Below, piece by piece: positions 6,624 through 29,372 of a DNA stretch of 64,000 nt. The DNA is from Tomocerus qinae (Eukaryota; Arthropoda; Collembola; Entomobryomorpha; Tomoceridae). The stretch lies in assembly GCA_020055645.1 (NCBI GenBank), contig CM034546.1, forward strand, positions 10,602,001 through 10,666,000, read 5' to 3'. The translations under genes were made by a program, and so were the position numbers. Under the pieces are notes generated by a model, which saw only the letters and a list, made by a program, of their open reading frames with translations, made no database searches and was not told the DNA's origin. Numbering within the stretch: the stretch's first letter is position 1; every line of letters starts with the position of its first letter.

Positions 6624-7471
6624 TTAAAAATCAGAGCCATGATTAAACGAAGACTGATGGTGAATTTCAATGTGGCTTTTAGGAAAACAAAGTTTGGAAT
6701 TCTTTTATATCGAATTGACATAAGAAAATTGTTTTGCATGCGGAAATATTTCTGAATTTACCTTATCGCCAATTGGTGGTGCAGGTTATCATGAGTTATC
6801 GGTGTATCATTTCTGGTGTATGTTGGCCATCCATCTGAAAACAATGAATTAAATTTTTATTTCCTGGGACCAACCTGAAAGGGACTTTAGTCTATCATAA
6901 TCTCATCTTTAGTCTAAAAGGAACAATTATTTGTAAAATTACTACGGTTTTTCATTATTTTATATGACTTACTGGTGTGTATCTTCAAGGTCTTCAAGTC
7001 ATCAAATTTTGCACAATAGCGTAAACAAAGTACTAGAATTATAAATAGTAATACAGTAGAGCCAACAGCCACAAGAATTATAGTATTCGCATCATTCTCA
7101 TCCCTGTGTGAATTCCATTCAGAGAAATATTTAACAAATTGCAGTCAAAATAACTGCATTTAGGTTCAAGTTAGACATCGAACACGTTTTGAATACTTCT
7201 TTTAAATTCTATTTCTTGTATAGTCACTATTTAATGACAAATTAATTTAAATAATATGTGCAGGAATTCAATGGTAATTAATATAGTAATACAGAAAAGT
7301 AAAGTATGTAATTTCCATAAAATGTCTCATTACATAATGTTATTGTATTTCGATTTATATTTTAGTTATCATTTTATAATTTACTTACATGCCTCTATTT
7401 GAAGATTGTGCAGTGACACTTTCGAACGTAGACAAAAGAGAAACTAATACGCCAACAAAGGTGAAATTCCA
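6624..7471 (-). pseudogene. PPSY-cluster membrane protein, decayed copy D
   Basis: Paralogue of the genes at 10920-12178 and 16041-17367, read on the minus strand. Exons inferred: 7389 to about 7471, 6973-7103, 6762-6834, 6624-6675. All junctions are GT-AG with the same phases as the paralogues. Exon 1 encodes the signal peptide (FVGVLVSLLSTFESVTA), exon 2 a short acidic ectodomain, one membrane helix (ILVAVGSTVLLFIILVLCL) and a Cys-containing basic junction. Two defects are visible. The position of the usual ATG reads TTG with no in-frame ATG just upstream. The proline-rich exon 4 ends at a TAA, so the PPSY exon is not reached. It could still be expressed from an unseen upstream exon, but decay is the simpler reading. 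Confidence 0.55.
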
Positions 7472-8329
7472 AAGAGCAAAAAAGGACCTTTTATTGCATT
7501 TTCCTTTTTTGCTTTTTTGTAAAAAAAGGTAAGTGCAAAATTGTAAATAAGATAACCTTTTTCCTTTTTTACGTTTCTAAAAGTTGCAAAAAAATAAATA
7601 AAATGTCTTATTTGGTGGTCTGATATTTCTAGATTAGTGTTCTATTGATTTCAAACACTATTTCCCACCACAAATGTTTACATTATGTTGGTTTCTATAT
7701 ACGCGTCAGATCTAAAAACGATTACCTACATAGCTTTTGATGATGTTATCAAGGGCACTGACTGTATATGTATATTATGAATAGGATTAAGAACTTAACT
7801 AAATTGACTTGTTTTTTTGTTATCAATTGATGTAATGCAAACTGCTTTAGAGATAATTCATTGCAATGACTAAGCCAACTTTAACCCTTTCATGTCATGA
7901 ATTCCCTATGCTATAAGTGGCTGTTATTGTTCACAATCAGCTTTATTAACGTGACATCATAGGCTCATAAATTACACGAATTGAAATCAGTAACAACAAT
8001 TAAGCTACCACTGATCTTTCCCCAAAGTCACAAATAACAAGACAGAATTATTGCGAAGTAGCAAAATACAATGTTTATATTTAATACATTTTGTAGAGGT
8101 CATTCCGTTTAGAAATTATTAGTTGGTTCACACGATCGATCAGCATATTTAGGGATAGTTCTTTGTACACCCATTTTCGTGGAAGATTATTCCAAGCCAT
8201 TGCTGCTGCGTGCTTTTTACCGAAGTTGACCTTGATGCTACAATAAAACTTTGGGGAAACAGTTACAATAATTATATCTGACATTACACCATCCTTCCGT
8301 ACCTAGGTACCGTAGATATTAGCCCCTTT
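7472..8329. other. Intergenic with cluster-flank repeat
   Basis: No supported gene. Positions about 7720-7870 match, in direct orientation, the sequences at 10455-10570 and 12430-12580; all contain AGGATTAAG or AAGGATTTAACTAA-like blocks. They appear to be the retained 5' flanks of successive duplicated cluster units. A minus-strand frame at 8081-8284 faintly resembles the Trp-Asn-x-Leu-Pro tail of LINE reverse transcriptases, too weak to call. Confidence 0.45.
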
Positions 8330-8388
8330 TCATCTGTCGTTTAAAAAACCGAAATTCTTTACAGCATTTTGATAACTGGGTTGTGCCT
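8330..8388 (-). pseudogene. Orphan last exon of a PPSY-cluster gene (copy E)
   Basis: A 59-nt minus-strand segment preceded by a TTCTAG acceptor encodes AQPSYQNAVKNFGFLNDR and a TGA stop. It has the same length and phase as the last exon of the gene at 10920-12178 (APPSYQDAVKNSRFLNDR), with PPSY changed to QPSY. Intron similarity continues to about 8460 and then stops. No exons 1-4 of this copy are visible between here and its apparent 5' flank at 10360-10570. A chemoreceptor fragment occupies that interval instead. It is most likely a remnant. Confidence 0.6.
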
Positions 8389-8685
8389 CTAGAAGTTGAA
8401 ATAGTATATTTTATGATATGTTTTATTATAATTAAGTCCTATGGCCTTGCAATGTAGACACTACATTCAAATAATGAAATCAATTTATATCCCTCAACGT
8501 GATTTTATAGAGCCGTTTAAACGAAAAGTTCGTACACTATCCCCAGCCTCCCCTACTACGTTTTGTTAATGGTTGCCCCAACACGGTTGAGTTATTGTAT
8601 CATTAAAAGCGATTAGAACAGGATTTTTTTACTAAATAGCCTTGCCAATTGACGAGTTTAATGTTTGATTCAAATGATTTAAGCT

Positions 8686-9486
8686 TTATAGATTTGCAGA
8701 AGAAATAAGAAGGGATGTTGTAATATTGAGACTGGCGTCATAACAGTCTAAAGTGTACTGGTGTTTTACCACTGGGAATACTCCGTATCGGACTCCAAAA
8801 GCCTTACTGCTGACGAGCATTTGATTGCAATATTTTTTATCACAACTGGCGGCTGGTAACTCCATTCGTAATGTATTCAGAGTGTCCCATGAACTTTTGT
8901 AACAAACAGAGCAAGAGAATAAAAGGAGAATGAGAGGAATTCCACTTGCACCAAATGCTACTGTCATCAGAACTACATGTTCTATTTCGTCTGTGTTTTG
9001 CTTTATAAGACCAAACACAGAGATCGATTGCATAATCACAAACGAATATATAGCAGATGAAAGAAATTCTTTGAGGAGACAGTCGTTGAATATCTTGTTT
9101 AAAATGCGTAACCCATTGTAGGTTCTGATTTTCTCCTCCAGAGATGCTTCACTTTTTCTGCCAAGAATATATCATTGAAATCTCCATTTATAAATAAAAC
9201 ATGGAATAACAATTTCCGACTTGAATCAAAATTGCCAACCTTATCATATCCAAATAGACACGTTCTTGTTGAGTGGATAGTACGGCCGTCAATATGCTCT
9301 CCAGTTTGTTAAGATGGAACATTTCCAACTCTTTGACGCCTTGCTCAACAACATATCTACCTAAAACCACATTAAATGCTAAATAAGGACCAAAGAAACT
9401 GGGGATAATGTAGATTCCTGTAATCCATTTTGATAACAGCACTTCCCGGAACACGAAGTCTTTAATTCCTGGTTTTTGCCACCAGC
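8686..9486 (-). CDS. 7TM chemoreceptor, gustatory-receptor-like, 3' exons
   Basis: Two joined minus-strand exons, 9240-9486 and 8686-9157, spliced across a GT-AG intron in phase 2. The join restores Arg and continues one frame to the TAA at 8686. The 239 codons encode a WWQKPG-type start, a helix (GIYIIPSFFGPYLAFNVVL), a charged loop with a Lys-Ser-Glu-rich stretch, and two further helices around SAIYSFVIMQSISVF and VLMTVAFGASGIPLILLLF. A short C terminus follows. The layout fits the second half of an arthropod gustatory-type receptor. The 5' exons were not found; exon 9486 starts in mid-codon, so more must lie upstream if the gene is whole. The family call rests on topology and residue pattern only. 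Confidence 0.5.
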
Positions 9487-10919
9487 CTATGTAGAAAATT
9501 AATTAACAAAATGACGATTTCAATGATTGCTATCTTAACATGTCATAAAATATTACAATTCTTATACTTCAATAATTAATTATGGAAAATTCTTTTAATT
9601 CATACCATATTTTATACGCAGGAAAGTTTAAAATTTAGCTATCCATATTGAAGCTATATTTTTTTCAATTCGCAAATGATTTTAAGCTAATAGGAGGTTC
9701 GGTTAGGTTAGGTCCCTTAATAAATGAGTATAGAGTATTTCTTTAATGTGATGCCATTTTCGTTGGTCATAGTCATGAATGTCATGGAAGTCATGGAATT
9801 TTACCCAACATCCCCATCCAGGTGTTTGGATGGGCTGGAAGGGATGTGTTGGTGATGGCTGTATTGGGTGGTTTACTTTATTTGGATGTTGGTGATCGGC
9901 TTAACTGGATGGTTTAGCTTATTTGGATATTGGTGATGGGCTGGATAGGATGTTGATCTTTTCTTGGGTGTTTGGTGATGATGGTTCCTGGATGTTCCAT
10001 CTTTTGCATCGGATGGAATGTTTACCTACAACTTACATCTATGCTGCTAAGTGTTATTCTGTTTTATCCGAAATAAACTGCACGCACCAGGTGGGTGAGG
10101 GAAAGAATTTTCTGAAATACATTCCAACTTACAATATTGACCTGAAATACACACTAGCTTTATTTATAACAGGGCCTGGGCCCTGTGACCGGCTAGTATA
10201 TTATAAAACTATTTGGCTCTCCCTACAATACATAGATACGTAGGTGGAAAAATGTAATAAGTCTACGATTATAATATAGATTAGGAAATGAAGCCGAAGT
10301 TTATAGACGACGAATTGGAGCGAATGAATTAAGATGTATTTGATGTATTGTTATGTTATGATCCGTTAACAAAATGAAATTGGTTTTGCCGGCTTATATC
10401 GGGTTGGTTTATATAATATGTAAATTTTCTTCAGAACCAAAAACACTATTGACTATCTTATCAAGGGCCAAAGGCATAAGCTATATTTATTATGTGATGA
10501 ATATAGGATTAAGGATTTAACTAAATCAACAAGTAATCAGTTAATGTAATCCAAAATACCGCAGAAATACATTCGTTACAGCCTACAGTCAGTCCCCACA
10601 AAAAGTCACACTTTACAGATAAATTCCCTGTGAAATAAGATGAGACCATGAAATTTCAGTTGTGTGCTAATTTTAAAGGGACACTAAAACGTTTTGCAAT
10701 GAAACTGGGGTGAACCTGAGATTTGCTTTGGGATAATTCAATTTTTTGTGTGAAGTGGAATAAAATTGTTCCCAATCTTTGACCAAATAAATAACTCACA
10801 GAAATTATATAATAAATTTTTTTATTGGTTTTTTTGCTAGTAATAAGTTAAGTCAATCCATCATTATTTATGCGTTGTTTGTTGTACCCTTATATGCAGT
10901 AGTAAGTATTAGTCCCTTT
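9487..10919. other. Intergenic with degenerate GGATG repeats and cluster flank
   Basis: No supported gene. 9810-9995 is an imperfect repeat of TTGGATGTTGGTGAT-like blocks, which explains the open frame beginning at 9923. 10360-10570 resembles the 5' flank of the cluster gene at 12300-12580, suggesting a lost or displaced copy here. Confidence 0.5.
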
Positions 10920-12178
10920 TTATCTGTCATTTAGAAAACGGGAATTCTTTACAGCATCTTGATAACTTGGTGGTGCCTCTAGAAACAGAAATAGTATATT
11001 GTATTAGATACTTTAGTTTAACAAATTAAAATTGGTGCACCAATTGACCAATTAAGTCCTATGACCTTGTAATGTAATTAAATCTTGCCAAAATCTATTT
11101 ACAAAGTTTTAAACCAAAATCTATTTACAAAGTTTTAAACCAAAATCTATTTACAAAGTTTTAAACCAAAATCTATTTACAAAGTTTTAAACCAAAATCT
11201 ATTATAGTGCCATTTCTACAAACAACGACAATTATCATTTCAAACAAATGCTTACCAAATGGAGATGGGTCTGTATGTTTTGTATTCCCAAAACCAGGAT
11301 TAAAAGGAGGCTGTGACAATTCAAGGCTTTTGAAGTAACAAATTATATAATTTTAAGTTAGACATGGTCGGTAAGTGTACAAGAATGATTTGGATCTTTT
11401 ATGCATATAGAATTGAATTTTAAAAATCATTTTGCATGAAATATTTTCTGCATTTACTTAATTGCTACTGAAGTTGTGTTTAAGATTTCCGCATTTGTTT
11501 CTGCATCTGCATTTGGTTGCATTGCTTCTGTTGAATGGATAACTGAAATCAAAAACAAAATTTCTATTTCCTCGGCCAAATTGAAAGACACTATCATGAT
11601 CGTAGCTTTCGTAGAACTATAAAATTAGACTTACGCTGATTTTCAGAACATAACCATTTTTTGATCTTTGCTTTTTTGGTGTCACACCAAATACAAAAAC
11701 CACCTATTAGAGTAACAACTAGGAAGACAGAGAAAATGGTCCAGCCTCTGTGAATTTCAATTCAAAGAAACATTTAGTCAAATTTTAATTAATACATAAT
11801 ATTGAAGTATTCCATATACACGATGAGTCACAATGACTGCAATTGGCTTCAAGGTTAAATAAAATTGAACACATTTTTAAAAATTATCGTTTTTAAACTT
11901 AAAATTCCATTTCCTGAAAAATCGCTGAATTAAAATTTTAGAAATAACAGACAGATAGCTCTAACCCAATAATGCAGATTAAAAATGGTAATTCACAAAG
12001 CAATAGAGAAATAATACAAAGTAAAGCTCCAAATTTTTGTATTTAATGGTGTTTAAGATGTATTTTACAGTAATTTATAATTTACTTACTCTTTGTTGTT
12101 AAATTCAGTCTGTTGTGCGTTGATACCTTCAAAAAAAGACGCAAGGGAAATTAGTAAACCAACAAGGATGAAATCCAT
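10920..12178 (-). CDS. Small single-pass membrane protein with PPSY tail (copy A)
   Basis: Unrecognised family, modelled as five exons: 12090-12178, 11635-11747, 11458-11542, 11256-11326, 10920-10978. All introns are GT-AG and the frame is continuous (417 nt, 138 residues). Residues 1-23 form a signal peptide (MDFILVGLLISLASFF). About ten ectodomain residues follow, then a membrane helix (IFSVFLVVTLIGGFCIWC) ending in juxtamembrane cysteines. The cytoplasmic part is basic, then Ser/Thr/Gln-rich, then proline-rich (SQPPFNPGFG). It ends with PPSY at 122-125 and the tail QDAVKNSRFLNDR. PPxY is the canonical ligand of WW domains, for example of Nedd4-type ligases, so an adaptor role is inferred, not shown. 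It is the best preserved copy, with every exon intact. Confidence 0.7.
11088..11203. repeat. 26-bp tandem repeat in intron 4 of copy A
   Basis: Four and a half near-identical copies of a 26-base unit beginning CCAAAATCTATTTAC, located between exons 4 and 5. The copies are nearly identical, so the expansion is recent. The other cluster members lack it at the matching place. Confidence 0.9.
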
Positions 12179-12292
12179 TTTAAAAAATTTAATTGCTGTC
12201 AGCTGTTGCATCCGTTTGCACTAGAATCAAACATTAAGTTTGAAATGAAGGACATTTGTCGTAAAATTACGAATTGAACTTAACAGACGCGA
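12179..12292 (-). promoter_or_regulatory. Conserved upstream block of copy A
   Basis: The sequence immediately upstream of the copy A start codon matches that upstream of copy B (17368-17482) almost base for base through TAACAGACGCG. Introns of the same genes have diverged much more. It is likely 5' UTR and core promoter. No TATA position can be fixed with confidence. Confidence 0.5.
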
Positions 12293-14030
12293 AATGGAGA
12301 CGGCGAGATGGCTATAATAACAGGTCAGTTAACGAAATAAAATTGTGTTTAATGGTTTATAATATAGTGTAGGTGTAGATATTTATTTATTTGCGTCAGC
12401 ACAACAAAAAAAAGATTAAATGTCTTAAAGTAATCTTATCAGAGAAGTGCAGGGTAGTAATTATATTTATATTATATATTATGAGTACGATATCAGACTA
12501 AGGATTTAACTAACTCTACCAGTTATTGTTATCAGTTGATGTAATACAAAATACCTCAAACAGGCAAATTCATTGAAAGGAACTAAGCCAGCAGAGGTAT
12601 ATAATATTATATGTAACTACCCTCTCTGAAATTGTTGATTGGAACTTTCGGAATACCTTTTGATTAATTATAGCCACTGGCTAGTTGGCAGGTGGCCAGG
12701 GGACAAAATGGGCAAAAGTAAAAAAATATGCTTTTAAAATTAGCACAAAAAATTTTCAAACTTACGCAGGTAATTAACTGTTTGTCCTTGAAAATCGGAG
12801 CGAATTATATTGTAACAAGCTTGATTTTTAGGATAAAATAATTACGACTTAGACTTTTGCCTCTTTTGCCCGGGTGGGTGGGCAAAATGTAAATTGCATG
12901 ACTGAAATAGAAAACTCTGAAAACATCCAGAAAGTCCCTTGATCTAAAATTTGCAATAAGCATTATTAGGTTGTTGGTGCTGAAACTGAAGCGCAATATA
13001 CATTTTTTGGGTAGTTGGTAGTGAAAATTTGCGCAATATATATTTTAGGTTGTTGTTAGTCAAACTGCTCAATGTTCAAATGAAAAGGAATAAAATTAAA
13101 AGTTAAGGGACCGTATTTTATATTATATAGCGCAATATAGTTGAGCTATATAATATGGTGATGGTGTAAAATCATCTTTTTCAAATTAACATATTGTAGG
13201 ATTTGTGATCGATGCTCACTGTTGTCAAACTGGCGCTCATTCATACATATGATTGAAACCATTAGCTGTTCGGTGCGTCAGGGATGATGGTAATCTGCAT
13301 AAGCAGAGTTAAGCTTGCATCATTACATAATCTGGAACATTGAAGCAGCCACACCAGCTTAATGCATCAAAGTCAAAACTAGTGATTGTATTGTCAACCC
13401 AGACGTTTGACTGAATTATTCAGGCTTAGTATGCAATTTATACACTCAAAATAACAATGTATTAAAATACATTTGAAATGAACATTTACGTTACAGATAC
13501 TTAGCGCTAACATGCATCAACTCAAAAAGGATGATTGTAATAGTTTTACATCTACATCAGAACATTGATAAATACGCTTACTACCTAAATAACTTGACAG
13601 TAACATAATACTACGAACATCTATCATATTTATTCAGGGCCTAACAACACTGGGAGTCTCTATATAGATACTGTATTCAATAGCTATTCAATGCGATAGA
13701 GTAATAAAATTCACATGCAAATATATTAATCTTTATGCCGTCCCCATAGATATAGTAACTAGTAACTAGTGAAGTACGATCACATGATTGAACTTTGTTT
13801 ACATTTCGTATTTAATTAAAGCGAGGCAAAATACAAACAATGCTGCTTATCTAATAGAAACACAAAAGTCACATTCCCAATGTTGTCAAAAATATAGATT
13901 GAGCTTTTGAATTTAGCCCTCTGTTTTCTTAATTCACTCTTAGCCTGTTCTTCGCAGGTCATAAAAATGCAATATATATTGAATGAACGTAGTCTTCTCA
14001 TCTAGATGCTATATAGTTACTATATCTATG
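12293..14030. other. Intergenic, no gene seen
   Basis: Contains the cluster-flank repeat at 12430-12580. A short block at 13619-13680 (TTTATTCAGGGCCTAACAAC) also occurs at 17522-17575 upstream of copy B. In copy B it lies about 150 bases from the start codon and here about 1.4 kb, so extra DNA of about 1.3 kb seems to have entered this flank. Confidence 0.5.
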
Positions 14031-14212
14031 ACCGTCCCTTAAATAACCATTTAGCCTAAATCCATTTTTCGTTTTTTGTACGAAATAGCCTGTATTCACT
14101 TTTTGTTTGGTTATTGCGGATATTTAGTACACAAAACAAAATGGGGATTTAGGCCATTTCATACACAAAACGAAAAATAGACTTAGGCTAATTTGTTCCT
14201 TAAGTGACGATA
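14031..14212. mobile_element. Small MITE sharing CGTCCCTTAA termini
   Basis: A 182-bp inverted-repeat element. The left end ACCGTCCCTTAAATAACC and right end TTCCTTAAGTGACGAT are imperfect inverted repeats. The internal block around TTAGCCTAAATCCATTTTTCG is mirrored by CGAAAAATAGACTTAGGCTAA. It has the same terminal signature as the 608-bp element at 2142-2749 and looks like an older or internally deleted relative. Confidence 0.6.
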
Positions 14213-15022
14213 TGTGGTACGAAGAGCCTAAATACACAAGTCCACTTCTAAACCGAAAAGTATTATTGAATTCCATGTGACAGTTTTAAAAACCATTTAA
14301 AAATTTTGGATGTCACCCACATTGAGTTAAAATCACCCGAAATGTCATCTTTAGCAAATAATATTTACTTCTTGATACTTAAAAACTTTTCTGAGATACC
14401 TTTGTTCCATTTTTTGAATAAAACCTCCGAGAATCAAATATGCATATTTATCATTTTTTAAAAGCGTCAATTCCTAAAATTATATTTGTTGACTCATACA
14501 ACAACACACTGCCACAATTTAAACCAATGGGACACGTCGAGCAATAATAAATGATACAATCAGATGTAAAAATTCTTGGCAGCGTAAACTACATGAACTT
14601 GTCATGCAATATTTCGCACAGCCGATTTTTATGCAAACGTTAAGTAAAGTTTTGACGTAGTAGGATATTGATTTTAACTGATCTAAGCCTGGATTTACGA
14701 CGATATCATTCAACTGAATTTTAAAAATGACCACCCACCTTTGTATTATTCTACTACGCAAAACAGTGCATTATGTATAGATTGTTCTGCTCTGCCGGCT
14801 GGGTATAATTTGTGTATAGCCCATAGCCGTGTATACAAAAGCATAATTATTACAATGTCAATATAGTAATTATATAATCACCAATTGATACAAACAATAC
14901 ATAATTATCTGTCACAATTATATCAATCATTATACCATTCTAACTGATTAGATTTTAAGCCTTTGGGACAATGCATAGCTGATGTAAAAGAAGGATATAT
15001 AACTATACCGCATTAATCTTAC

Positions 15023-15157
15023 CTTTCCTGTTTGCTGACGATGAATTCCATCAACAAATGAATCATTCATTCTGAATCCAATGATCCATCTGCGAGAAGT
15101 ACCAAAAATAGATAATTTAACTGCACGAGGAATTCCCTGAATTGGACGCAAATGTTG
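15023..15157 (-). other. Exon-like 45-codon segment, unrecognised
   Basis: Minus-strand open segment bounded by CAG and AAGGTAAG, exactly 45 codons in phase 0-0. It encodes QHLRPIQGIPRAVKL, FGTSRRWIIGFRMND and HRQQTGK. Its duplicate near 27237-27365 keeps LRPIQRIP, SLFGTSRRWII and MNDS and ends in CAGGTACGG, but lacks the matching acceptor. The protein pattern survives better than the surrounding DNA, which hints at a former coding exon. No companion exons were found. Confidence 0.3.
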
Positions 15158-16040
15158 CTGTCAATGCTCAAGGTTTATTTATAACTATCATTACGCCTAT
15201 CTATCCGCCTGCAATATCTGTGCCTAAAGCTAAACCCATCAGCAATATAAATCTTGCAAAATTTGCATAAAAGTAATCACGATATAATTATAAGTAAATT
15301 TTGCTCATTATTAGATAACAATTTGTAAGTTAATTAATGGATGAGAATGTATTATTATGATTATTCGTTATTTCATATTTTTGAAACCAGACAATTTAAA
15401 TGTAAATTTTAAATATTTTTTGTTTAAATTTATTACTTATAATAGTATTTCATTAAATGTCTCTCGGATGACTTCAGTTTGAACAAGTGATCAAATTAAA
15501 TTAGTAAATCAGGAATTTTAGCCTTCTTAGCATTAAAATCTTCAAAACATGTGGCAAAATGATAATATAATCAACTGAACATGAGGTACATCTGAACTAG
15601 AGGCTGCAGTAGGGATAGGTAATCTACTATGAGATATTCAGTTTTTAGTATATTCGAACAAGGGATATATTTTAAATTGATACCTCCACATGTCATCTAT
15701 CGTCTTCCATTTGCATAAAAGCTGAAAAGTTAGGTATACTCCAAAGAAAGTTTCCAAAATTATTTCTAAATGAATGTGAAAATTATATACATCATGTCAA
15801 TTTATTTCCAAGATATCATACAAGTGACAATTATAGATTTCACAGTTTTTAATTAGCTAGAATCTATTTTAAATATATCACAGTTACAATTATATACAAT
15901 TAAATTAAAAAAACATGGGTTATGTTCTTTAATTGTCGTTTTTCAAGCAATAAGTTGCTCCGATTTATTAGTACCAGTAGTAAATGTTGTCCCTGGAGTT
16001 TGGCTCGGTCTTATAGAAAATCGTAACTCCTTACAGCATC

Positions 16041-17367
16041 TTAATAGCTAGGTGGTGCCTCTAAATAGAAATAGCACAACGTGCATGAGATATTAGTCTT
16101 AAATTACACCTGATATATCAACAAGTCCAATGATATAGTAATAATGTAATTAAAATCTATCGACAGAAGTTTAAATGAAAAATGCTATTGAGATTCATTT
16201 TATTCTGTAAACTGTGACAATTATCATTTCAAACATGTGCTTACCAAATGGAGGCGACTCTAAATTTATTTTATTTTCAATACCAGGATTAAAAGGAGGC
16301 TGCGGCTGCGGTTGGGACACTTCAATGCTTTTGAGGGAACAAATTCCATAATTTTATGTTAGACATGATTTATAAGTATACATAATGGTTTTTGAAACCC
16401 TTATACTTATTATTAAGTAATTTAAATATTCATTTTGGATGGAATAATTTCTGCATTTACCTCGTTACTGGAGGAATTGTGATCGAAATTGCAGTATTTG
16501 GTTGTAATGGTTGTATTGAGTTACCTGAAAACAATAAAATAATTTATTATTTTGTTGACCAAACTGAAAGCGAATTTAGTCTATTTTATCATACTGATTG
16601 AGAAACCAGTATTTCTGTCATTTTCATAAGATAATACCACCTACTTACGTTGGCTTTCAGGTACTTCTAAACAGTAAGAATTCCTTTCGACACAACCGCA
16701 GCAAAACATAAGAATAACAGCACAGCCAACAATCAAGAAAATTATTATTATCGTGGTATCCAGTTTATCTTCATACCTGTGGTAAAATCAATTCAGCGAC
16801 ATTTATTGACATTTATAACAATTAAATATTGTATTTAAAAGGTTGACATTTTATGTTCGACCATAGTAAATACTCACAATAACTGCAATTTGGTTCAAGG
16901 CTGAAATCGAACACGTTTTGAAAACATGTTTATCTTAATCTTAATATAATACTGCCTACAAAATTGCAATAAGACGTTTCCCACAATTGCTTTCTGGTCA
17001 CCAGTTGAACTGAAGCTTAGTAGATGGAGGTAGAGAATTATACATTAAAAATCCTGAAAATATCATGTTTCCATCTACTGAGCTTCAGTTCAACTGGTGA
17101 CGCTTTCAAACGTCTATTAAAATTTTTAATATTAAATGGCAGGTAGAATGTGCAGGAATTCGACTGTAGTTAGTACAATGAATATGGAAATCGTAGCGGA
17201 AAGTGAGTCACATTATTTTTACCTAGTGTTACTGTTTATATTGTAATTATGTATCATTTTATAATTATTTTATAATTTACTTACTCGCCATCGTGGTTAG
17301 ACTGTGCATCGACACTTTCGAAAGTAGACAAAAGTAAAATTAATACCCCAACAAGATTGAAATCCAT
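16041..17367 (-). CDS. Small single-pass membrane protein with PPSY tail (copy B)
   Basis: Five exons: 17285-17367, 16649-16776, 16461-16524, 16245-16327, 16041-16060 (378 nt, 125 residues), with the same intron phases as copy A. The signal peptide is MDFNLVGVLILLLSTFES. A short ectodomain contains NHDGE and YEDKLD. The helix TTIIIIFLIVGCAVILMFCC is followed by a CGCVER palmitoylation-like junction. The cytoplasmic part has a Pro/Gln run (SQPQPQPP) and ends in APPSY. The codon after Tyr is TAA where the paralogues have CAA, so the last 11 residues are lost. The former stop lies at 16011-16013. The PPSY motif is thus placed at the extreme C terminus, still potentially able to bind a WW domain. 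Confidence 0.65.
16972..17118. mobile_element. Hairpin insertion in intron 1 of copy B
   Basis: Two 32-base arms (16997-17028 and 17070-17101) are reverse complements with one mismatch, around a 41-base loop. A further outer pair AGACGTTT/AAACGTCT is present. The duplicated locus at 28.1-29.6 kb lacks it at the matching intron position, so it entered after the duplication. It is either a tiny MITE or a foldback that could be transcribed as a hairpin RNA. Confidence 0.6.
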
Positions 17368-17506
17368 TTAAAAAAATTTACTTGATGTCGCAGCTGTTGC
17401 ATTCCTTTCCACTAGAATCAAACATTAAGTTTGAAATGAAGGACATTTGTCATAAAATTACGATTTGAACTTAACAGACGCGATATATATATATATATAT
17501 ATCGCG
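17368..17506 (-). promoter_or_regulatory. Conserved upstream block of copy B with CG-capped AT palindrome
   Basis: 17368-17482 is nearly identical to 12179-12292 upstream of copy A. It runs directly into a perfect 28-base palindrome at 17479-17506, a TA repeat capped by CGCG at each end. The palindrome is absent from copy A. The shared part is likely 5' UTR or promoter. Confidence 0.5.
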
Positions 17507-19263: not shown

Positions 19264-19760
19264 GGAAAGTATAAATATATTCATAAAATGCTTTAAATGG
19301 CTTTCTTTAAGAACTTTGGAAGTTGCGTAAACATAAAATAAGCATGTATAAAATATGTGATGTGTTTGAAATGATTCTAAATGGCGAAAAATACAGTCTT
19401 AGCACACATTGTAAGGTATCCATGGGGTTAATAAAACCGTGAATCAGTCTCTACTCGTTATTACATAAATATTGCCACATTTCCATCTGTGTATTACATC
19501 TGTTTGTTAAATTAGTGGTTAAGCTTTCGCCGGAAGACGATGAATCAGCAAGAAAATAATATTTCTGTCGAATCACAAACGAAATGCATAACAAATGTAT
19601 TAAGTAACTGTATATAAAAATGGAGTAGTAGTAATATCTGAAGCATTCAACAGGTATCAAAGAAGACTGACTGGCGTCTGCTGAAGGCCTTTTTGTCTCA
19701 GAGACATGAAGTGGTAATTCAAACACACGTGTATGTTATGAATATTGAATGATATACCTT
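19264..19760. repeat. Direct duplication, copy 1
   Basis: An uninterrupted segment of about 500 bp. Its parts recur in the same order at 19838-20154 and 20925-21085. Shared landmarks include TTCCATCTGTGTATTACATC, TCACAAACGAAATG and TCTCAGAGACATGAAGT. The minus-strand frame here ends in NRCNTQMEMWQYLCN, and that of the second copy in NRCNTQMEMSEYLCN. I do not treat either as a demonstrated gene. Confidence 0.7.
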
Positions 19761-20154
19761 GAAGTAAAACATAGTCTATGTATATAGCTCATCTATCCCC
19801 TCAAAGCATTTACAAGTATGGCAGTTTGGAGCTTAGGGAACTATAAATATTTAACTAATTTTAAAATGCTTTAAATGAGTATCTTTAGGATATTTTTCCA
19901 GTTTCGTAAGCCTATATAAAATTTGTGGTGTATTTGATTCTAAATGACAAAAAATACAGTCTTAGCTTATATGCTAAAGTACACCAAAGACCGGAAATAA
20001 GTCTCTAATTGTAATTACATAAATATTCCGACATTTCCATCTGTGTATTACATCTGTTTGTTAATGTATTGGTTAAGCTTACACCAACAGGCAAGCAATG
20101 AATCAAAAAAGAAAATAATATTATTTCTGTCGGATCACAAACGAAATGAAGTAC

Positions 20155-20630
20155 TGAATTTTGAATAAAATTCGCCGCTAATACATAAAATACCTTTGCA
20201 GCTGACGATTGTTGTCCCAATTTGACTACCTAACTTAACGTGTTGTAATTATTCCGAGAAAGAGTCTCGTCAAATTCTTTGGGACTGAATTGAACTGAAT
20301 TGGGACAAAATCGTCCTTATTTACTTGTTGAATTATTAATTTTAAATTTAATTAAATGAGAATTTTTATAAATTAAATGAAAGTTGGCTGTACCAAGCGA
20401 ATAAATGTCGTTTAAAGTTTAAATGACTTTTTAACTACTTTCAGTCAACATTCAAATATAAATCTTAATTAGAAAAATTTTAGAGAAAATAGACCATGAA
20501 AACTTATTTTAATGTGCCGTTTGTGTATCTCTAGTAGGTATTCACTATAATTTACCATTTTTACCATTAAATAGATTTTTTACCATTGCATTAAGTGGAT
20601 GTAATGGCTAAAAGGTGGTAAATTTTATAA
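20155..20630. mobile_element. Diverged copy of the TTTACCATTTTTACC MITE
   Basis: Shares an interior (AATTTTGAATAAA, GACGATTGTTGTC) and a right end (TTTACCATTTTTACCATTAA, AAAGGTGGTAAATTTT) with the better preserved element at 24969-25557. The left terminus and target duplication are not recognisable, so it is an older or truncated copy. Confidence 0.5.
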
Positions 20631-20637
20631 AGCAGAA

Positions 20638-20925
20638 TGACGTTGAGGACGAAGAAAAGGATGTTGATCTAACAGAGCCTATGGACGTAACTCTATCCTC
20701 TGACGACGACGTTGAAAAATAAACTCCTTTCAATGTACTCATCCAGTAGATTTATAATTTAATTTTGCATTGAAATAATACAAACATTTGATTTGCCCTT
20801 CGAAATATAGTTCCCCATATCATAATAATTCCCCATGTGGGGAACTATAAGAATATTTTTGACGAAAAAATGGTCTCCAAATGGGAGTTCCCCTGGGGAA
20901 CTAAATCGATTAATACGGTAAGTCT
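20638..20925 (+). mobile_element. 3' remnant of a pogo-like DNA transposon
   Basis: Begins with a short acidic reading frame that ends at a TAA (LTEPMDVTLSSDDDVEK). Acidic ends of this kind are typical of pogo/Tigger transposases. A non-coding part with AATTCCCC...GGGGAACT inverted motifs follows, ending in AATACGGTA. A homologous remnant is at 26475-26820. Only the 3' part is present. Confidence 0.4.
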
Positions 20926-21085
20926 ATACTTTATAATAGAGTTGCATTTAGAAGTAGTAATATCGGAAGCATTAGATAGATATCAAAGTGGACAGACTGG
21001 CGTCAGTGGAAGGTCTTTGTTTCTCAGAGACATGAAGTAGGGATTCAAACACAAGTGTATATTATGAATAATGGATGATAACTAG

Positions 21086-21807
21086 AAGGAAAGAATAGTC
21101 TATTTAGATAGCTCATACTCATACTTCAACTTAAAGGATTTCCGCATAAGGCAGATTGGACCTGGGTATTTCTCCCAGTGGTCATTTAAAGGTTTGATAA
21201 CGGTATTTCCGTGAAATATTTTTTGAAGGTGATACATAAGTGAAAGGTAAAAGACAACCGTATTTACAGGGAAAAATTGGATTTTTTCGGCATTAAATCG
21301 TGGTTCTAAATCCCAAAATATAATTATATCACACATTATATAAAATTTATTACAATTTATTAATGAGCATGGGCTATTGAAACCATTATAATGTATACGT
21401 TCGACTTTTTTTGTTCCTAAGCAAACCAAATGAGTTTCAAAGCTTGCTTTTGATGTGTTTAAAATTTTCATGTCCATTTTCCCGTTTTGTGTGACATTGT
21501 AATAATAAATAGCCCAGCATCGATCGAGCAGGACATTGGTCTGCTACGCTGTTTTCGTTATTTTAAGTATCGTGTTCTCCTTCCGCCTTTGTTTGCTTTC
21601 ATAAGCTTTATAAATAGAATGGCTTCGAGCGGAACATAAAAACTATAAAGGAATGAAACCAATTTTCCTCACAGTACAGTTGTTTCTTTCCACTTTATAC
21701 TTAAATATGAATACAAATCTCATTCCTTCTTCTATACAATTTTTTGTTTCTTTTCATCGCCCAGTGCGCCCTGACCAGATATAATTTAAAATTAAATAAG
21801 TATCAAT
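21086..21807. other. Upstream region of receptor gene
   Basis: A minus-strand open frame of 125 codons (21100-21477) has no recognised domain, signal peptide or paralogue, and I leave it uncalled. The rest is probably the 5' flank of the receptor gene that starts at 21808. Confidence 0.35.
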
Positions 21808-23787
21808 ATGTGTTTTATTCATTCATTCATTCTATTTTTATTATTTTTTATTATTATTAACAAAGTTCAATGTTTTCGAAATTTATCGTTTTATAGTAAT
21901 TGTGATTTTAACATGATTACTTTTAATCAATCCCAGTGGCAGACAGAATTTATGTTGTCGAACCAAAATGGCCAACCCTGGACCTTAGCTACAACAAATT
22001 ATAAGAAAACACTTTTTCGTCGCCATGAAAAATATCCTCGAGATTTATCAATAAATTTGTGCACTGTAAATATTCTAATAGAGCCAGACCCTGGTTTGGA
22101 ACATTTGGTCATTTTTGGAAAAGAAATAAATCGATTTAATTCAAGATTCATTATCGTCATTAAAGATGAATTGAAAACAATCAATTCAAACTGGCAATTA
22201 AGACTGATTCAAGATATGGTGTCCCCACTCTTTATATTGGCAATGAAAGGTGGGAACAATTATTCGGTTTACACGACATTTCTCTACAATCCTATCACAG
22301 AGTTCCCAGTTTTTCGTAAACTTGAAATTGGAGACTCGGAAGAAATATGGGAAAGAATTTGGAATAAGTTGAATGGGAATCTTCATGAAATTCAAATTGG
22401 TTGTACTTTATTCAATCTTTGGTCTCCAAACAGACAAAATAGAAAAATGGCAAAATGCAGGAAATCAATCTATACAACAATGAAAATTCAATATTATTGT
22501 CGAAATTCAGTAAGAGCTGTTGAATTAATGGCTGAAAGATTGAACTTCACTGCAGTTTATGGAAGGAGATATAAAAATTTAGAAGCAGAACATAAGCGGT
22601 GTGGAAGAATTGTTATGTTTACAGCAAAGAATGAGCCTTATAAAATAGATTGGTATGAAACTCTTTTCATTGAATACTTTAGGGAAATGATTCCGTATTA
22701 TTGCGAAGCCAATTATCGTTTTCTTGATACTCCTTTGGCGGTTCTTATCCAAAATACATTTGATGAATATTGCTGGTGGCTGATATTCTCGCTATTCCCC
22801 ATTTCATTTTATCTTTTGGGTATAAGATTTTCTACCTTATATAAGAAATTCGAGTACATTATTGTATCTACAATATCCGTTCTATTATATCAGGAAGTCT
22901 CCAATAAAGGGAGGAACATTTTGTACTTGGTAATTGTGACCATGGGATTTGTAATTGCTATTCAATATGATACTTGGATAACAAGCGAGATTATTGCACC
23001 GCCAGACAGAAAACAATTTATAGACTTTAAAGATCTCATCGTAAACGGATACAAATTGCTCTTAGAGAAAGACGATAGAGAGGGTGTGGATGACGAGAGC
23101 CCCGAATATTTTGAGAAATATAAAATTTTGAAGAGATATAACAAAAGTGTCCACAGATTCGATTTTGAAATCGATACATCACCTGATGACAAGGAAATGA
23201 GTAACACTTATATTAGATGGAAATTGTTGAACAACTTTTTATTGAAGATATTTGTCGTAATGGACAAAATGAGTAGTGAATACCTTGTGAACTCAATACC
23301 ATCTGAAGACACTTCAGATGGTGTTTGCATGACAGTAAAAGAAACGGATCTTGCTATTCCGATATCTTATTTATTCAGAGATTGTTACCGTTATAAATTC
23401 CAATCGTATTTTCATGTCATGCAAGAGAGAGGATTCTTGACATATTTTAGACAACAACACAATTTCGACTATCAATTAGAGAACAGACTATCCCATGCCA
23501 AACTGAAGTATGAAGAGTCTCGAAGTGTGGCAATAAGTCTTTCGATGAAGATTCACACCATTTTCTTCGTTTGTGGATACTTCTTACTTGGCTCATTTAT
23601 TACTCTGCTTCTAGAAAGATTGTGGCATCATAGACTAAATTTGCAAGTAATCCTTTTAGAGATTTTAGAAAAAACTAAAAATATTCACAAAAAGGTTAAA
23701 AGTGCAAATCGTGTAATTCCTGTTGCAATGGATGACGTCTTTGAATTGCGTAAGCCATTTTTAATAAATAAGGATTTCCCAAGGTGA
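21808..23787 (+). CDS. Ionotropic-receptor-like protein, paralogue 1
   Basis: Open frame of 659 codons. A strong signal peptide (SFILFLLFFIIINKVQC) starts at the ATG. The extracellular region (about 24-315) carries FYSNCDFNM and SNQNGQPWTLAT, shared with the 60-62.5 kb paralogue. M1 is about 322-341, the pore segment about 348-362, M3 about 369-391 (VTMGFVIAIQYDTWITSEI) and M4 about 582-603. It is a divergent IR/GluR-fold channel, probably chemosensory and at the plasma membrane; the ligand is unknown. Near the C terminus TTGCGTAAG matches the splice donor used in the paralogue. The coding sequence may therefore leave the frame at 23749 and join a later exon that I could not identify. The last ten residues are provisional. 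Confidence 0.75.
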   Translation: MCFIHSFILFLLFFIIINKVQCFRNLSFYSNCDFNMITFNQSQWQTEFMLSNQNGQPWTLATTNYKKTLFRRHEKYPRDLSINLCTVNILIEPDPGLEHLVIFGKEINRFNSRFIIVIKDELKTINSNWQLRLIQDMVSPLFILAMKGGNNYSVYTTFLYNPITEFPVFRKLEIGDSEEIWERIWNKLNGNLHEIQIGCTLFNLWSPNRQNRKMAKCRKSIYTTMKIQYYCRNSVRAVELMAERLNFTAVYGRRYKNLEAEHKRCGRIVMFTAKNEPYKIDWYETLFIEYFREMIPYYCEANYRFLDTPLAVLIQNTFDEYCWWLIFSLFPISFYLLGIRFSTLYKKFEYIIVSTISVLLYQEVSNKGRNILYLVIVTMGFVIAIQYDTWITSEIIAPPDRKQFIDFKDLIVNGYKLLLEKDDREGVDDESPEYFEKYKILKRYNKSVHRFDFEIDTSPDDKEMSNTYIRWKLLNNFLLKIFVVMDKMSSEYLVNSIPSEDTSDGVCMTVKETDLAIPISYLFRDCYRYKFQSYFHVMQERGFLTYFRQQHNFDYQLENRLSHAKLKYEESRSVAISLSMKIHTIFFVCGYFLLGSFITLLLERLWHHRLNLQVILLEILEKTKNIHKKVKSANRVIPVAMDDVFELRKPFLINKDFPR

Positions 23788-24968
23788 GGTAAATTTCTAT
23801 AGCAATACATTTATCGTAAATACACAGGTGAGGAAAGGACTCTATATTACCATTGAAATGATAAGGACAAACTTTGGGACGAATCGTCCCAGCTCATGGT
23901 ACCAATCCAAATTCAGTTAGGAACTCATTTTCATTTGAATGATCACAGAGATTACCATACAATTTGATAGTCATTTAGTTTCAAAATTAATTTTAAGTAC
24001 TTATGACATAATACTTATGGATCGAGATTAACGTAAAATTTTCAACAAATTAAATTCAGGATGCAATCTATGCAATGGAACACGCAGCAATTGCAATCAT
24101 GTATATTATGCAATCATGCCTGTCAATATGAGAAATATGCATGCAAGGAATCTAAGATGGGGACGGGACTGCTGGGACAAAAATTCATATTTTTGTCCCA
24201 GAGTTTGTCCACCGATATAAAGGTCCTTTCCCCACCTGTCTATGGATTTCCTAAGTTAATTAGATCACAAGTTCAAACTTCGGCCATGTAATTTGAAATA
24301 TTTTGCTGAAGTAAATCAGAATTTTTTCAAATCTAAAAGTAAAATGCTCAAGTTAGTGGAATCAATTGGGTAGATAGTTTATTTTTTATTTATATGCGCG
24401 TTATACATGTTTCAAATTTTAACAATTTTATTTCATACTTAGATATAACTAAACATGCATTGTCCTTTCAGGAAAAGGTTTTAATAGTTGACTTTTTTGA
24501 ATTGAACATGCAGCTAACAATATTCTGAAGGTGGATAAAGAACACAACAGTGACCAGTTCTTACCTGTAACTACCGATGCCATGTGACGGTTGAATTTAT
24601 TGAACATCGATCTCCGATATCTTTATCATTTCATCTCTGCTCATTTTCCTTTGCATTGAATGGAATGGACGCAAGGCCATAGCGAGGTTGCACGTGCCTC
24701 AGTGTCCCTATCTTCCGAAATCGAGAAAAATAAAGAAAATTTTTTCTTAAAACCCAAAAATTCGCTAAAATTATCATATTGTTTCTCATTATTTTTGTTG
24801 CTACCCCCTTGACCATGCTTCTAGATACTTGCCTAAATAGAGGATTATTAAAGAGGTATGTACTTGTAGCTTTATGTACTACTTTTCTGTCTTTGTTCAA
24901 TTCGCTGTCTATATATAGTACGGCCGCATTGTGAGGTTTTGGTCTTTTCATTATTAGCGGTTCTTGAG
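23788..24968. other. Downstream of receptor, no firm gene
   Basis: May contain an unrecognised 3' exon of the receptor gene. A minus-strand open frame at 24631-24993 runs into the end of the hAT-type MITE and shows no known domain. Confidence 0.35.
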
Positions 24969-25557
24969 CAGTGTACAAAATACCATTTACCACTTACCAC
25001 TGGTAAGTGGTTTTTAATGGTATTTAACGTTAAATACCACTGCCTAAAAAGTAGTGGTAAGTGGTATAAATGGTAAAAAAGGTAAAAATAGTTTCATTTA
25101 AATTTCGTGTTGGAATTTTGAATAAAGTTCGGTGCCAAAGTATGAAATAGCTTAGCAGATGATCATTGTTGTCACAAATTGATAAGTGTTCATCAATCAG
25201 AGTAGGATTCAACCAATGGGGCGCTAACAACCCTTGCCGATTAAGAAATTAATTGCAATTAAATTAGCATCAATTTTAAATGGGCGATATCAAATACAAT
25301 CTTTCCTTCTTCATTTTTTTGATACTTTTGGTTACAATATGATTAATTTAATTGATTAAGGGGCTAATTGGAAATATTTCATAGAAAATAAAGTTTTAAA
25401 ACTTATATAATTTAGGAAGTCTAGTGTATCTGTATTTTGCTGTCTAATCAATTGCTGAAATTTACCATTTTTACCATTAAATGCATTTTTACCATTAAGT
25501 GCATTTTTACCACTGTGATGGTAAAAAAGGCTAAAAAGTGGTAAATTTGGTACACTG
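24969..25557. mobile_element. hAT-type MITE, 589 bp, with 8-bp TSD
   Basis: Ends CAGTGTACAAAATACC and GGTAAATTTGGTACACTG form the terminal inverted repeats. The 8-base sequence TTCTTGAG flanks both sides (24961-24968 and 25558-25565). Eight-base duplications and CAG...CTG ends are hallmarks of the hAT superfamily. The subterminal regions consist of many TTTACCAT/ATGGTAAA motifs in both orientations. No transposase is encoded, so it is non-autonomous. Confidence 0.85.
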
Positions 25558-25689
25558 TTCTTGAGCTTGCTATGATAATCAATTAAAATTTCAGAAATAC
25601 TTTAATTGATAAATACCACTTTTTAACTTATCGTATGTAATCGCTTGCCTTGCCATTCCTAGTGATCAATAAATTGTTTCTGACAGAAC

Positions 25690-26410
25690 TATTTAAGGTA
25701 TCATCAAATATTCATAACATACTTGTGTGCTTTCGCTCGGAAGTTTGTGCTTTTAATACATGAAGGTTTCGGACGTGAATCGGTTTCCCACAAAATGCAA
25801 TTTGCTTATTCCGTTTCTAGTGTATATATGATGTGTTACGTGATCCCTTTGTAAAAGACCTGTAATGGTTTTTGTGGTATAATTAACGTTTCAGATTTTG
25901 TGGAAAATTTGTGAAAAATGATTGTTTTTAAGTAGGCTTCGGCATCATTTGTGTTATTAAGTTGCCAAAATAATATATGATTTTACTTGTGATTTGAGAA
26001 TTTGCTAACTGGTTAATAAAAGTCTATAAAATCACTTCTTAAATTTTAATACATTTTATTTCATTTTATGTACTAATAAAACTTGGTAGATCCTCGCGTT
26101 GTTATTTTACCAGGACATGACTACAACGACCGCTGGAAACATCCGATTTCTGCCTCGAAAACTTTTCGCAGCAGTTTTTAATAATTCATTTGGCATTTTG
26201 GTAACGATAATTTTCAGCATCAATCTACTGTACAGCCATTCCAGAAAAAGGAAAAGAAAACAATGATTCTGGCAGAAGTATTTAGGGTCTCATCAAACAT
26301 TCATAAGATACCTGTGTGTTTTGGCCCGAAAGTTTGTGCTTCTAATAGACGAAGGTCCTCGCTGATGTCAATCGATTTCCTACAAAATAGATTGAGGGAG
26401 TTCTGTTTCT
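25690..26410. repeat. Direct repeat pair (25690-25820 and 26270-26410)
   Basis: The two segments of about 130 bp share TCATCAAA.ATTCATAA, GAAAGTTTGTGCTT-like and TTTCC.ACAAAAT blocks in the same order, separated by about 450 bp of unrelated sequence. A plus-strand frame in the second copy is not conserved in the first. Confidence 0.55.
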
Positions 26411-26474
26411 GTGTTGGAACAAACCTTTCAAGGACTCCATCCGGGTACAATACAATGACTGGGTGACAACACCT

Positions 26475-26820
26475 GGAAGCATTGAATTAACCAAAGGAGG
26501 AAACCCCAAGCCACCCCCTCATTACTTATTGTCTGCAATTGGATCAAGGAAGCCCGGGATAACATTCCTAAAGATGTAATAAAAAATAAACGGAACCTAT
26601 GGAAGCATTACTCTCCTCTGACGAAGAAAATTAATTACATTCTAATAAAACTTTTTTTAAATAATGCATTGATAATCTAAAAAATATTGATTTTGAAACT
26701 ATAATTCCCCGTTTCGAAATAATTCCCCATACGGGGAACTACATCGATTTTTCTTGGACAAAAAGTGGCCATAAAAACTATAATTCCCCCGAGGTGCTAA
26801 TTCAATAAACACGGTATACG
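26475..26820 (+). mobile_element. 3' remnant of a pogo-like DNA transposon, second copy
   Basis: One frame reads IVCNWIKEARDNIPKDVIKN, the pattern of the conserved C-terminal end of pogo/Tigger DDE transposases (WI.EAW..IP...I). An acidic stretch and the same AATTCCCC/GGGGAACT non-coding end as at 20638-20925 follow. It is out of frame and partial, so inactive. Confidence 0.45.
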
Positions 26821-28149
26821 TAAAATATAATGTAAAAGTGCTTTTTCTTCTTCTATGCCGGTCTTTGTATATTTATAATCAACAATGAAAAAGCATCACT
26901 ACATATATAAAGTTCTTTTGTTGTTATGAAAAATGACCACACACCCTTATATTATAGTACTGCGCAAAACATTGTTCAGTTCAGTGTCCATAAGTTGTTC
27001 TGCTCTGTCCGTCTGGGTATAATTTGTGTGTAGTCATGAATAAAAAAAGCACAATATTAAAATATCCATATAGTAATCACTCTCTCACCAATACATAGAT
27101 ATATATCTGTCACAATTATATGAACCAATGAACCATTATACAATTCTAACAGATTAGAATTCAAGCCTTTGGGACAAAGTATAGCTGATGTAAATGAAGG
27201 ACATATAACTAATTCATTAATCGTACCGTACCTGATTGTCCACAATGAACTTTATCAAAAAGTGAATCATTCATTCTAATGATCCATCTGCGTGAAGTAC
27301 CAAAAAGTGATAATTTATGTGCATGAGGAATTCGCTGAATTGGACGCAAATGTTTATGTAGACAATAAAATGCCCAAAACTTATTTATAACTATCATTAC
27401 GTCAATGCAATATCTGTGCTAAAAGCTACTGCACCCATCAACAATATAAATACTGAAAAAGTCCCATCAAAATAATCACGATATAATTATAAGTAAATTT
27501 TGCTCAATATTAGATAAAAATTTGTTAGTTAATTAATGCATAAAAATGTATTATTATGATTCTTTGTTACCTATATTTTTAATCTTTTAAACCATGCACA
27601 ATTCGTTGTAAATTTTAAATAATTTTTGTCTGCATTTATTACTAATTGGATTTCAATAAATGCCTCTTGGGTGCCTTCAGTTTGAACAAGTGGTCAAATT
27701 AAAGTAGTAATTCAGGAATTTTAGCCTTCTTAACATTGAAACCTTCAAACTAAATATGATAATCAATCAACTATGAGATAATCAATTTTTAGTATATTCG
27801 AACGAGGCAAATTTTAGATTGATACCTCTACATGTCATCTATCGTTTTCCATTTGCAGAGAAGCTGAATAATTAAGTATACACCAAAGAAAGTTTTCAAA
27901 ATTATTTCAAAATGATTGTGAAAAATATTTACATCATGTCAATTTATTTCTAAGATATACAAGTGACAATTATAGATTTTGCAATTTTTAAGTGCCTAGA
28001 ATCTATTTTAGAGGTATCACATTTACAGTTTATATAATTTAATTTAAAAAACATTGGGCATCATCCTTTATTGTCGTTTTTAAGTAATCAGTTACACCAT
28101 TGTTATTAGCACCAGTAGTAAATAATGGCCCCTGGAATTTGGATCGGCC

Positions 28150-29372
28150 TTATAGAAGATCGTAATTCCTTAAAGCATCTTGATAACTAGGTGGTGCCTC
28201 TAAATAGAAATAGCAAAACGTGTATGAGATATTAGTCTTACATTACACCTGATATATCAATAAGTCCAATGATATAGTAATAATGTAATTAAAATCTATC
28301 GACAGAACTTTAAATGAAAAATCCTATTGAGTATAATTTTACTTTTGTAAACTGACAATTATCATTTCAAATATGTGCTTACCAAAAGGTGGCGGCTCTG
28401 TATTAATTGTATTCCCAAAACCAGGATTAAAAGGAGGCTGCGGCTGGGACATTTTAAGGCTTTCGAGGGAACAAATTCCATATTTTTATGTTAAACATGA
28501 TTTATAAGTGTTAGAGAGCAGAGCTCCCTATAATGCCTACGCTAAAAGGAGCGAACAGCCCGTAGTGCGCCGTTCCCTCCAACCCAACATTCCTTCCAGC
28601 AAAGCAAGTTGTCGTAGTAGTCGACATGCTGCTCCGCCACAATCTACACTTCCATTCGGTCAGCCATTGCACCAACACTGAGAACCTCGTCTTCTCCAGT
28701 ATTTCTTATATTCTAAATTCAATTCTGATCTTTGTCAATTAAGTAACTGTCATATTAAATTGTGCTTTCTTTAAACTATACTACGGAAGTCTATTGGCAA
28801 TTGGATTGATTGGGCAAGCACGAAACCTAACCCCGAGATACATTGAATCATAATTCATATTATATTATTATTTATATTCAGTAATACACATACAACATTA
28901 CATCCACATTTCCTAAAATTATTATGAGTTTGCTGTTACTACAGTAGAGCAGCGGCAGACTCATAATATAAGTATACAGAATGGATTTTGGCCCTATTAT
29001 AGTTTACCAATAGGAAAGTCTTTTAAAAAATAATTTTGCATGGAATAATTTCTGCATTTACCTAATCGTTACTGGAGGAATTGTGTTTGAAATTGCAATA
29101 TTTGGTTGTACTGAGTTACCTGAAAACAATAAAGTAATTTATTATTTTGTTCACCAAAAAGTAAATTTAGTCTATTTTATCATACTGGTTAAGAAACCAG
29201 GATTTCTGTCATTTTGATAAGATTGTATGACTTACGTTGGCTTTCAGCGTCTTCTAAACATTTAGAATTCTTTGTGCGATAGCGACAGATAATTATAGCA
29301 ATTAAAATTATTATTCCTGAAGAGATAACAATCCCAAGGATTACTGTCGTAGTATCCAGAATATCGTCATCC
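28150..29372 (-). pseudogene. PPSY-tail membrane protein, copy C, lacking exon 1
   Basis: Exons 2-5 are intact: 29236-29372, 29062-29119, 28383-28459, 28150-28199, all GT-AG and in the family's phases. Exon 2 encodes an acidic juxtamembrane segment (DDDILDTT), a helix (VILGIVISSGIIILIAIII) and CRYR. Exon 4 encodes SQPQPPFNPGFG. Exon 5 encodes APPSYQDALRNYDLL and a stop. No signal-peptide exon was found upstream; the duplicated sequence ends within intron 1. It is either a 5'-truncated pseudogene or a gene with a new, distant first exon. Its reading frame beyond exon 1 has no defect. Confidence 0.55.
28510..28971. mobile_element. Insertion of about 460 bp in intron of copy C
   Basis: A block richer in G+C than its surroundings interrupts the duplicated segment. 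TATAAG stands on both sides and may be a 6-base target duplication. The sequence starts with TGTTAGAG and has no coding frame. It could be a solo LTR fossil or another non-autonomous element; the class is not settled. Confidence 0.45.

Follow-up and report, generated by a model that had tools for sequence, protein, structure and literature searches.

The window analysed here is a 64,000-nucleotide (64-kb) stretch of the springtail Tomocerus qinae (GenBank assembly GCA_020055645.1, contig CM034546.1, positions 10,602,001 to 10,666,000 of the forward strand). It carries pieces of one gene type at five minus-strand loci, named copies A, B, C, D, and E, and the question that it raises is whether these pieces code for working membrane proteins and what such proteins might do. 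Two of the five loci are complete (A and B) and three (A, B, and C) keep PPSY, a motif of the PPxY (PY) type. Judged from the sequence, our tests favour A and B being real, moderately constrained proteins and do not settle the matter for C and D. By analogy with known systems we lean, by a small degree, to the view that the products are PY adaptors that would recruit a Nedd4-type ligase to cargo in the membrane.

Copy A (12178-10920, minus strand; 138 residues) and copy B (17367-16041, minus strand; 125 residues) each give an uninterrupted spliced five-exon frame, which bears out the two lengths stated in a first-pass annotation of this DNA. Both begin with ATG and a signal-peptide-like exon 1, the intron phases are 2,1,2,1 in both, and the splice sites match (donors gtaagt, gtaagt, gtaaat, and gtaagc, with acceptors that match too). 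The exons stand in register across the copies and are as follows, an asterisk marking a stop codon.

12090..12178, minus: A exon 1, ATG, signal peptide (cut by eye between GINA and QQ), phase-2 donor
11635..11747, minus: A exon 2, end of the ectodomain, transmembrane helix, juxtamembrane Cys
11458..11542, minus: A exon 3, cytoplasmic linker
11256..11326, minus: A exon 4, LELSQPPFNPGFGNT...PSPF
10920..10978, minus: A exon 5, EAPPSYQDAVKNSRFLNDR*
17285..17367, minus: B exon 1, ATG, signal peptide (cut by eye between SVDA and QS)
16649..16776, minus: B exon 2, transmembrane helix, FCCGC juxtamembrane
16461..16524, minus: B exon 3
16245..16327, minus: B exon 4, QPQPQPPFNPG...SPPF
16041..16060, minus: B exon 5, EAPPSY*, with TAA at the CAA position of A and C
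29236..29372, minus: C exon 2, transmembrane helix
29062..29119, minus: C exon 3
28383..28459, minus: C exon 4, QPQPPFNPGFGNT...PPPF
28150..28199, minus: C exon 5, EAPPSYQDALRNYDLL*
7389..7470, minus: D exon 1, signal-peptide-like, without ATG
6973..7103, minus: D exon 2, transmembrane helix
6762..6834, minus: D exon 3, placed by flanking splice sites, the coding part being barely alignable
6624..6675, minus: D exon 4, SHIEIHHQSSFNHGSDF, then TAA, without PPSY
8330..8388, minus: E orphan exon 5, EAQPSYQNAVKNFGFLNDR*

These are the same five loci that the first-pass annotation had named, and a tblastn search with four products against the whole window found no further place at E<=0.1; five weaker places (E 0.23-0.83) were taken as chance. 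The earlier statement that four introns of identical phase separate the modules holds for A and B; C has no exon 1, and E is exon 5 only. Upstream of the start codons of A and B, by slightly over 20 nucleotides, lies a stretch of 96 nucleotides (12200-12295 in A and 17391-17486 in B) that is 94% identical, the figure for exon 1 being 67%; this may reflect promoter or 5' untranslated region constraint, or else recent conversion.

The remaining copies are incomplete in different ways. In C (29372-28150, minus) exons 2-5 are open and no match to exon 1 was found upstream of exon 2. Since the homology between B and C stops near 29640, inside intron 1, and nothing matches exon 1 further upstream, exon 1 of C is missing or has been replaced. 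In D (7470-6624, minus) the frame is open over exons 1-3, neither exon 1 nor the 30 codons preceding it contain an ATG, and the first Met lies at the junction of exons 1 and 2, after the signal peptide; exon 4 stops as SHIEIHHQSSFNHGSDF* with no PPSY in its frame. E (8388-8330, minus) consists of a lone exon 5 that reads QPSY instead of PPSY. The small single-pass PY proteins had been proposed to form a family that duplicates locally; the gene anatomy and the coding analysis below support this, and the family is more decayed than had been worded. The cluster is one of birth-and-death turnover, with A and B complete, C lacking exon 1, and D and E decayed. As a separate observation on D, a downstream stretch at 6253-6199 (minus), headed by an exon-5-like acceptor, is joined in frame by D exon 3 if exon 4 is skipped; this open frame ends RGINLNHYRPPPNYLLVF*, a different PPxY ending, and it was found post hoc and has no start before the signal peptide.

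Hydropathy was computed by the Kyte-Doolittle scale with a 19-residue window and a threshold of 1.6, and signal cut sites were placed by eye. A has peaks of 1.87 (residues 3-21) and 2.27 (residues 33-51) and B of 1.6 (residues 1-19) and 3.11 (residues 37-55), while C and D each have a single peak above 3, the signal segment of D lying below 1.6. A strong helix is therefore present in A, B, C, and D, and on this hydropathy basis the signal peptide plus single helix of single-pass PY adaptors is found. At the likely signal cut, A and B both have alanine followed by glutamine. The ectodomain would be about 11-15 residues and free of Cys: A, B, C exon 2, and D carry none ahead of the helix, and the Cys residues lie late in the helix or just after it. 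The common plan that had been described for the complete copies is thus seen in A and B (ATG, signal-like exon 1, helix, Cys, PPSY tail), the part that needs softening being the Pro/Gln-rich tail, which is clear in B and C and less marked in A, whose 138 residues include 8 Pro and 6 Gln. An element resembling TTGAACC..AATTGCAG is shared by intron 1 of A-D and was considered, by eye, as a missed Cys-rich exon; it was rejected, also by eye, because usable splice sites are seemingly present only in B and its length breaks the frame.

In the tail, QPPFNPG and PFEAPPSY are invariant across A, B, and C, and among the PPxY or LPxY motifs looked for, PPSY is found in these three copies and QPSY stands in its place in E. 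PPSY had been described as terminal, and this is so in B alone, in which TAA follows directly; A ends PPSYQDAVKNSRFLNDR and C ends PPSYQDALRNYDLL, with residues that continue past PPSY. The former ending of B can still be read behind its stop (EAPPSY*DAVRSYDFL*), and therefore the ancestral tail probably ran on past PPSY. The extended motif is PPSYQDAV in A and PPSYQDAL in C and is absent from B and D. The pattern [PL]PSY[DEQN][DEQN]A[VLI] occurs 2 times in the 127,996 codons of the six-frame reading of the window, and the PPxY occurrences that fit it are those of A and C.

Coding constraint on these frames is supported and is modest. The ratio of nonsynonymous to synonymous divergence (Ka/Ks), obtained from protein-guided alignments, was 0.41 for A-B (bootstrap 0.22-0.74), 0.59 for A-C (0.33-0.99), 0.46 for B-D (0.25-0.95), and 0.25 for A-D (0.22-0.73). 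Because the ratio is flattered at high divergence and three of the pairings (A-C, C-D, and A-D) are misaligned in part, the best-aligned part of A-B, exons 1 and 4-5, was tested alone: 18 of 38 synonymous sites differ vs 36 of 139 nonsynonymous sites (Fisher p=0.016, from rounded counts). Between B and C all four exon gaps are multiples of three vs 4 of 16 gaps outside exons, alignment-end gaps included. In neutral simulations the probability of finding no stop at 30% divergence was 0.001, 0.005, and 0.02 for A, B, and D, and at 15% per copy it was 0.05, 0.06, and 0.15, respectively; for C at 10% it was 0.26, which is uninformative. When exon 2 was allowed to drift by 35-50%, the frame stayed open and the strong helix was retained as well in 0.6-4% of the simulated runs.

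Membrane PY adaptors of Nedd4 ligases include Ndfip and PMEPA1/LDLRAD4; Ndfip has three helices and PMEPA1 has two PPxY motifs and a Smad motif. In our preferred reading of this cluster, the signal peptide would be cleaved, leaving a Cys-free ectodomain and a helix whose cytoplasmic end bears Cys, followed by a flexible tail with the conserved PPFNPG block and PPSY near or at the C-terminus. Most likely the PPSY tail would bind a Nedd4-type HECT ligase through the WW domains of the latter, the helix would associate with other membrane proteins, and the cargo, or the ligase itself, would be steered to ubiquitination and endolysosomal sorting. The topology and the signal cleavage of this small, tandemly duplicated animal family, which would be of single-pass type I, are inferred, as are ligase binding, cargo, and transcription, and the motif is short enough for convergence.

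Several observations weigh against this proposal. Three of the five copies are incomplete, and the Ka/Ks values of B-C, 0.64 (0.37-1.12), and C-D, 0.81 (0.36-1.62), are compatible with neutrality. In the DNA alignment of A and B, 1 of 5 exon gaps is a multiple of three; exon 2 is 42% identical there, so that gap placement is unreliable, and this is probably what put the gaps out of frame. Exons 4-5 of A and B (79% and 76% identical) are barely above introns 3-4 (76% and 70%), and therefore the identity of the tail is in part shared ancestry or conversion and is not proof of selection. A single PPxY is weak evidence given that 12 occur in the six-frame reading of the window, A, B, and C being three of these, and B has no residues after PPSY. 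PMC5578492 adds that control of Robo at the midline by Drosophila Comm reportedly does not need Nedd4 binding and that the chitin activity of yeast Rcr1 reportedly does not need Rsp5; thus a PY motif need not work via a ligase.

The loss of C exon 1, the missing start and early stop of D, the single exon of E, and a stop in B earlier than in A and C would also fit if most of the copies were dead, left over from a gene whose working version lies elsewhere in the genome, and the window yielded no functional protein. The B-C ratio, not distinguishable from 1, points the same way. On the other side, A and B are intact, which neutral drift would seldom have allowed (0.001-0.005 at 30% divergence and 0.05-0.06 at 15%), the A-B ratio is below 1, and every B-C exon gap is in frame. 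We consider this reading unlikely.

Returning to the proposal of working PY adaptors, the divergence among the copies is uneven along the gene. Among the exons, exon 2 shows the greatest divergence in A-B and in B-C; in A-C exon 3 (38% identical) is slightly more diverged than exon 2 (42%). Identity between B and C is 90% in intron 2 and falls to 65% in exon 2 (p=4e-6). We considered positive selection as the cause and rejected it because the divergence is equal in the adjoining intron 1, of which the last 120 nucleotides, next to exon 2, are 64% identical, and a recombination block or an older paralogue segment is simpler. Since the divergent block extends into intron 1, recombination explains exon 2 better than diversifying selection does; in part of this block C is closer to D than to B. 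One could go further and suppose that a lineage-specific set of PY adaptors is built from exon modules, a common ligase-recruiting tail (exons 4-5) being joined to a fast-changing helix exon 2 that is swapped between copies by recombination, each copy choosing other cargo, possibly the receptor-like proteins of 3565-5685 and 21796-23787 described below. We regard this as a long shot.

Relatives were sought in Pfam, NCBIfam, Rfam, PDB sequences, viral contigs, and prokaryotic genome contigs. No significant relative was found in any of these libraries, and arthropod collections are not among them. The claim that the family is undescribed holds for these libraries and is not established beyond them. 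NCBIfam gave five matches, all far under cutoff (E 0.043-0.19); PDB sequences gave none in one search and three, none significant, in another (E 0.28-3.5). The pattern matches in viral contigs (6 and 18) and in genome contigs (22) were in no case confirmed by tblastn, and Rfam gave no match and there is no tRNA in the window. A Pfam scan of the four products to E 10 gave sub-threshold matches only: SYS1 and DUF2976 for A; Tetraspanin (E 0.013) and WBP-1 (E 1.8, 9.7 bits, cutoff 28.1) for B; CYYR1 (E 0.014, 16.3 bits, cutoff 31) and ASFV_P17 for C; and seven families for D, the best being Mid2 (E 0.0082). In segment-preserving shuffles, five of C and five of B, the CYYR1 and WBP-1 matches appeared in 0 of 10 and other sub-threshold matches in 3 of 10 (best E 0.046). 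The family is matched to no searched model, its functional design is well known, and it is partly decayed.

Signal peptide, one helix, and a PPxY tail are shared with CYYR1, with other proteins of the Shisa-like (STMC6) superfamily, and with WBP1 and VOPP1, and CYYR1 recruits WWP1 at late endosomes via PPxY motifs (PMC11399591). This raises the alternative that the cluster is a divergent member of the Shisa-like group (Shisa, WBP1, VOPP1, CYYR1), the Cys-rich ectodomain having been lost, and the CYYR1 match of C and the WBP-1 match of B, not reproduced in the ten shuffles, could at most be a weak hint of such kinship. However, most of that superfamily is marked by a six-Cys ectodomain pattern, C*C*CC*CC (PMC5578492), and since no Cys precedes the helix in A, B, C exon 2, or D, the definition fails and the family is not filed there; no profile score was above cutoff either. 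Each of the two models matched one of the four products, far under cutoff and across the helix and Pro-rich tail, and unrelated families score as well or better (Mid2 on D and Tetraspanin on B). CYYR1, moreover, has three PPxY motifs and the cluster proteins have one. Protostomes that have shisa carry one or two shisa genes (PMC7653359). We consider Shisa-like descent improbable.

The other comparison is with Comm, a short one-helix protein that has an essential GLPSYDEAL motif and can bind Nedd4, and with PRRG4, which has GLPSYEQAV (PMC5578492). The cluster proteins are likewise short and single-pass, the PPSYQDAV/L of A and C, with PP where Comm has LP, resembles both motifs, and the ectodomain is Cys-free like that of Comm. 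The cluster could therefore be doing the job of Drosophila Comm as sorting proteins, via descent or convergence. Against this, Comm is described as having no signal sequence (PMC5578492) whereas exon 1 of A and B is signal-peptide-like, and the likeness is one short motif that is not in B or D. Comm and PRRG proteins have more than one L/PPxY and the cluster proteins one PPSY each, with no profile match; no Comm-type family came up in the Pfam scan to E 10, and whether Pfam has one was not checked. Unlike PRRG proteins, the cluster proteins have no Gla domain, the ectodomain of about 11-15 residues having no Pfam match listed. No literature was found that joins Collembola and commissureless, and the strings PPSYQDA, PPSYEDAL, and PPSYDEAL were not found in the literature, whereas LPSYDEAL was. 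A Comm-like role is, in our view, slightly less probable still than Shisa-like descent. Yeast Rcr1 and Rcr2 share the Comm-like plan and carry PPSY and VPEY motifs, VPEY of Rcr1 binding Rsp5 with PPSY cooperating (PMC5578492); in contrast to them, the cluster proteins have no Pfam match listed and no similarity past PPSY.

If the products do bind Nedd4-type ligases, they would be a further lineage beside Comm, PRRG, Shisa-like proteins, and Rcr, one whose ectodomain is minimal and lacks Cys and of which several diverged copies sit in one cluster, and the cluster would show turnover of such adaptors through duplication and decay. As it stands, this is a modest annotation result.

The neighbourhood of the cluster holds other frames. 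The frames at 21796-23787 (plus), between copies B and C, and at 60568-62568 (minus) are both long (about 660 residues) and intact; they are 61% identical to each other, have no meaningful Pfam match, and resemble divergent ionotropic receptors. A 706-residue frame at 3565-5685 (plus) has a sub-threshold match to Lig_chan (E 7e-06, 26.4 bits, cutoff 30.8). Membrane-protein-like fragments at 8686-9502 (minus), directly before the E orphan exon 5, are gustatory-receptor-like by eye, with no Pfam match. A reverse transcriptase frame lies at 33883-36111 (minus; RVT_1, E 3e-17) and a retrotransposon-type integrase at 55619-56494 (plus; rve, E 1.6e-15). An array of long repeat units was seen by eye at 31300-33700, and another long repeat array, in which a 91-residue frame recurs five times, occupies 38100-43100.

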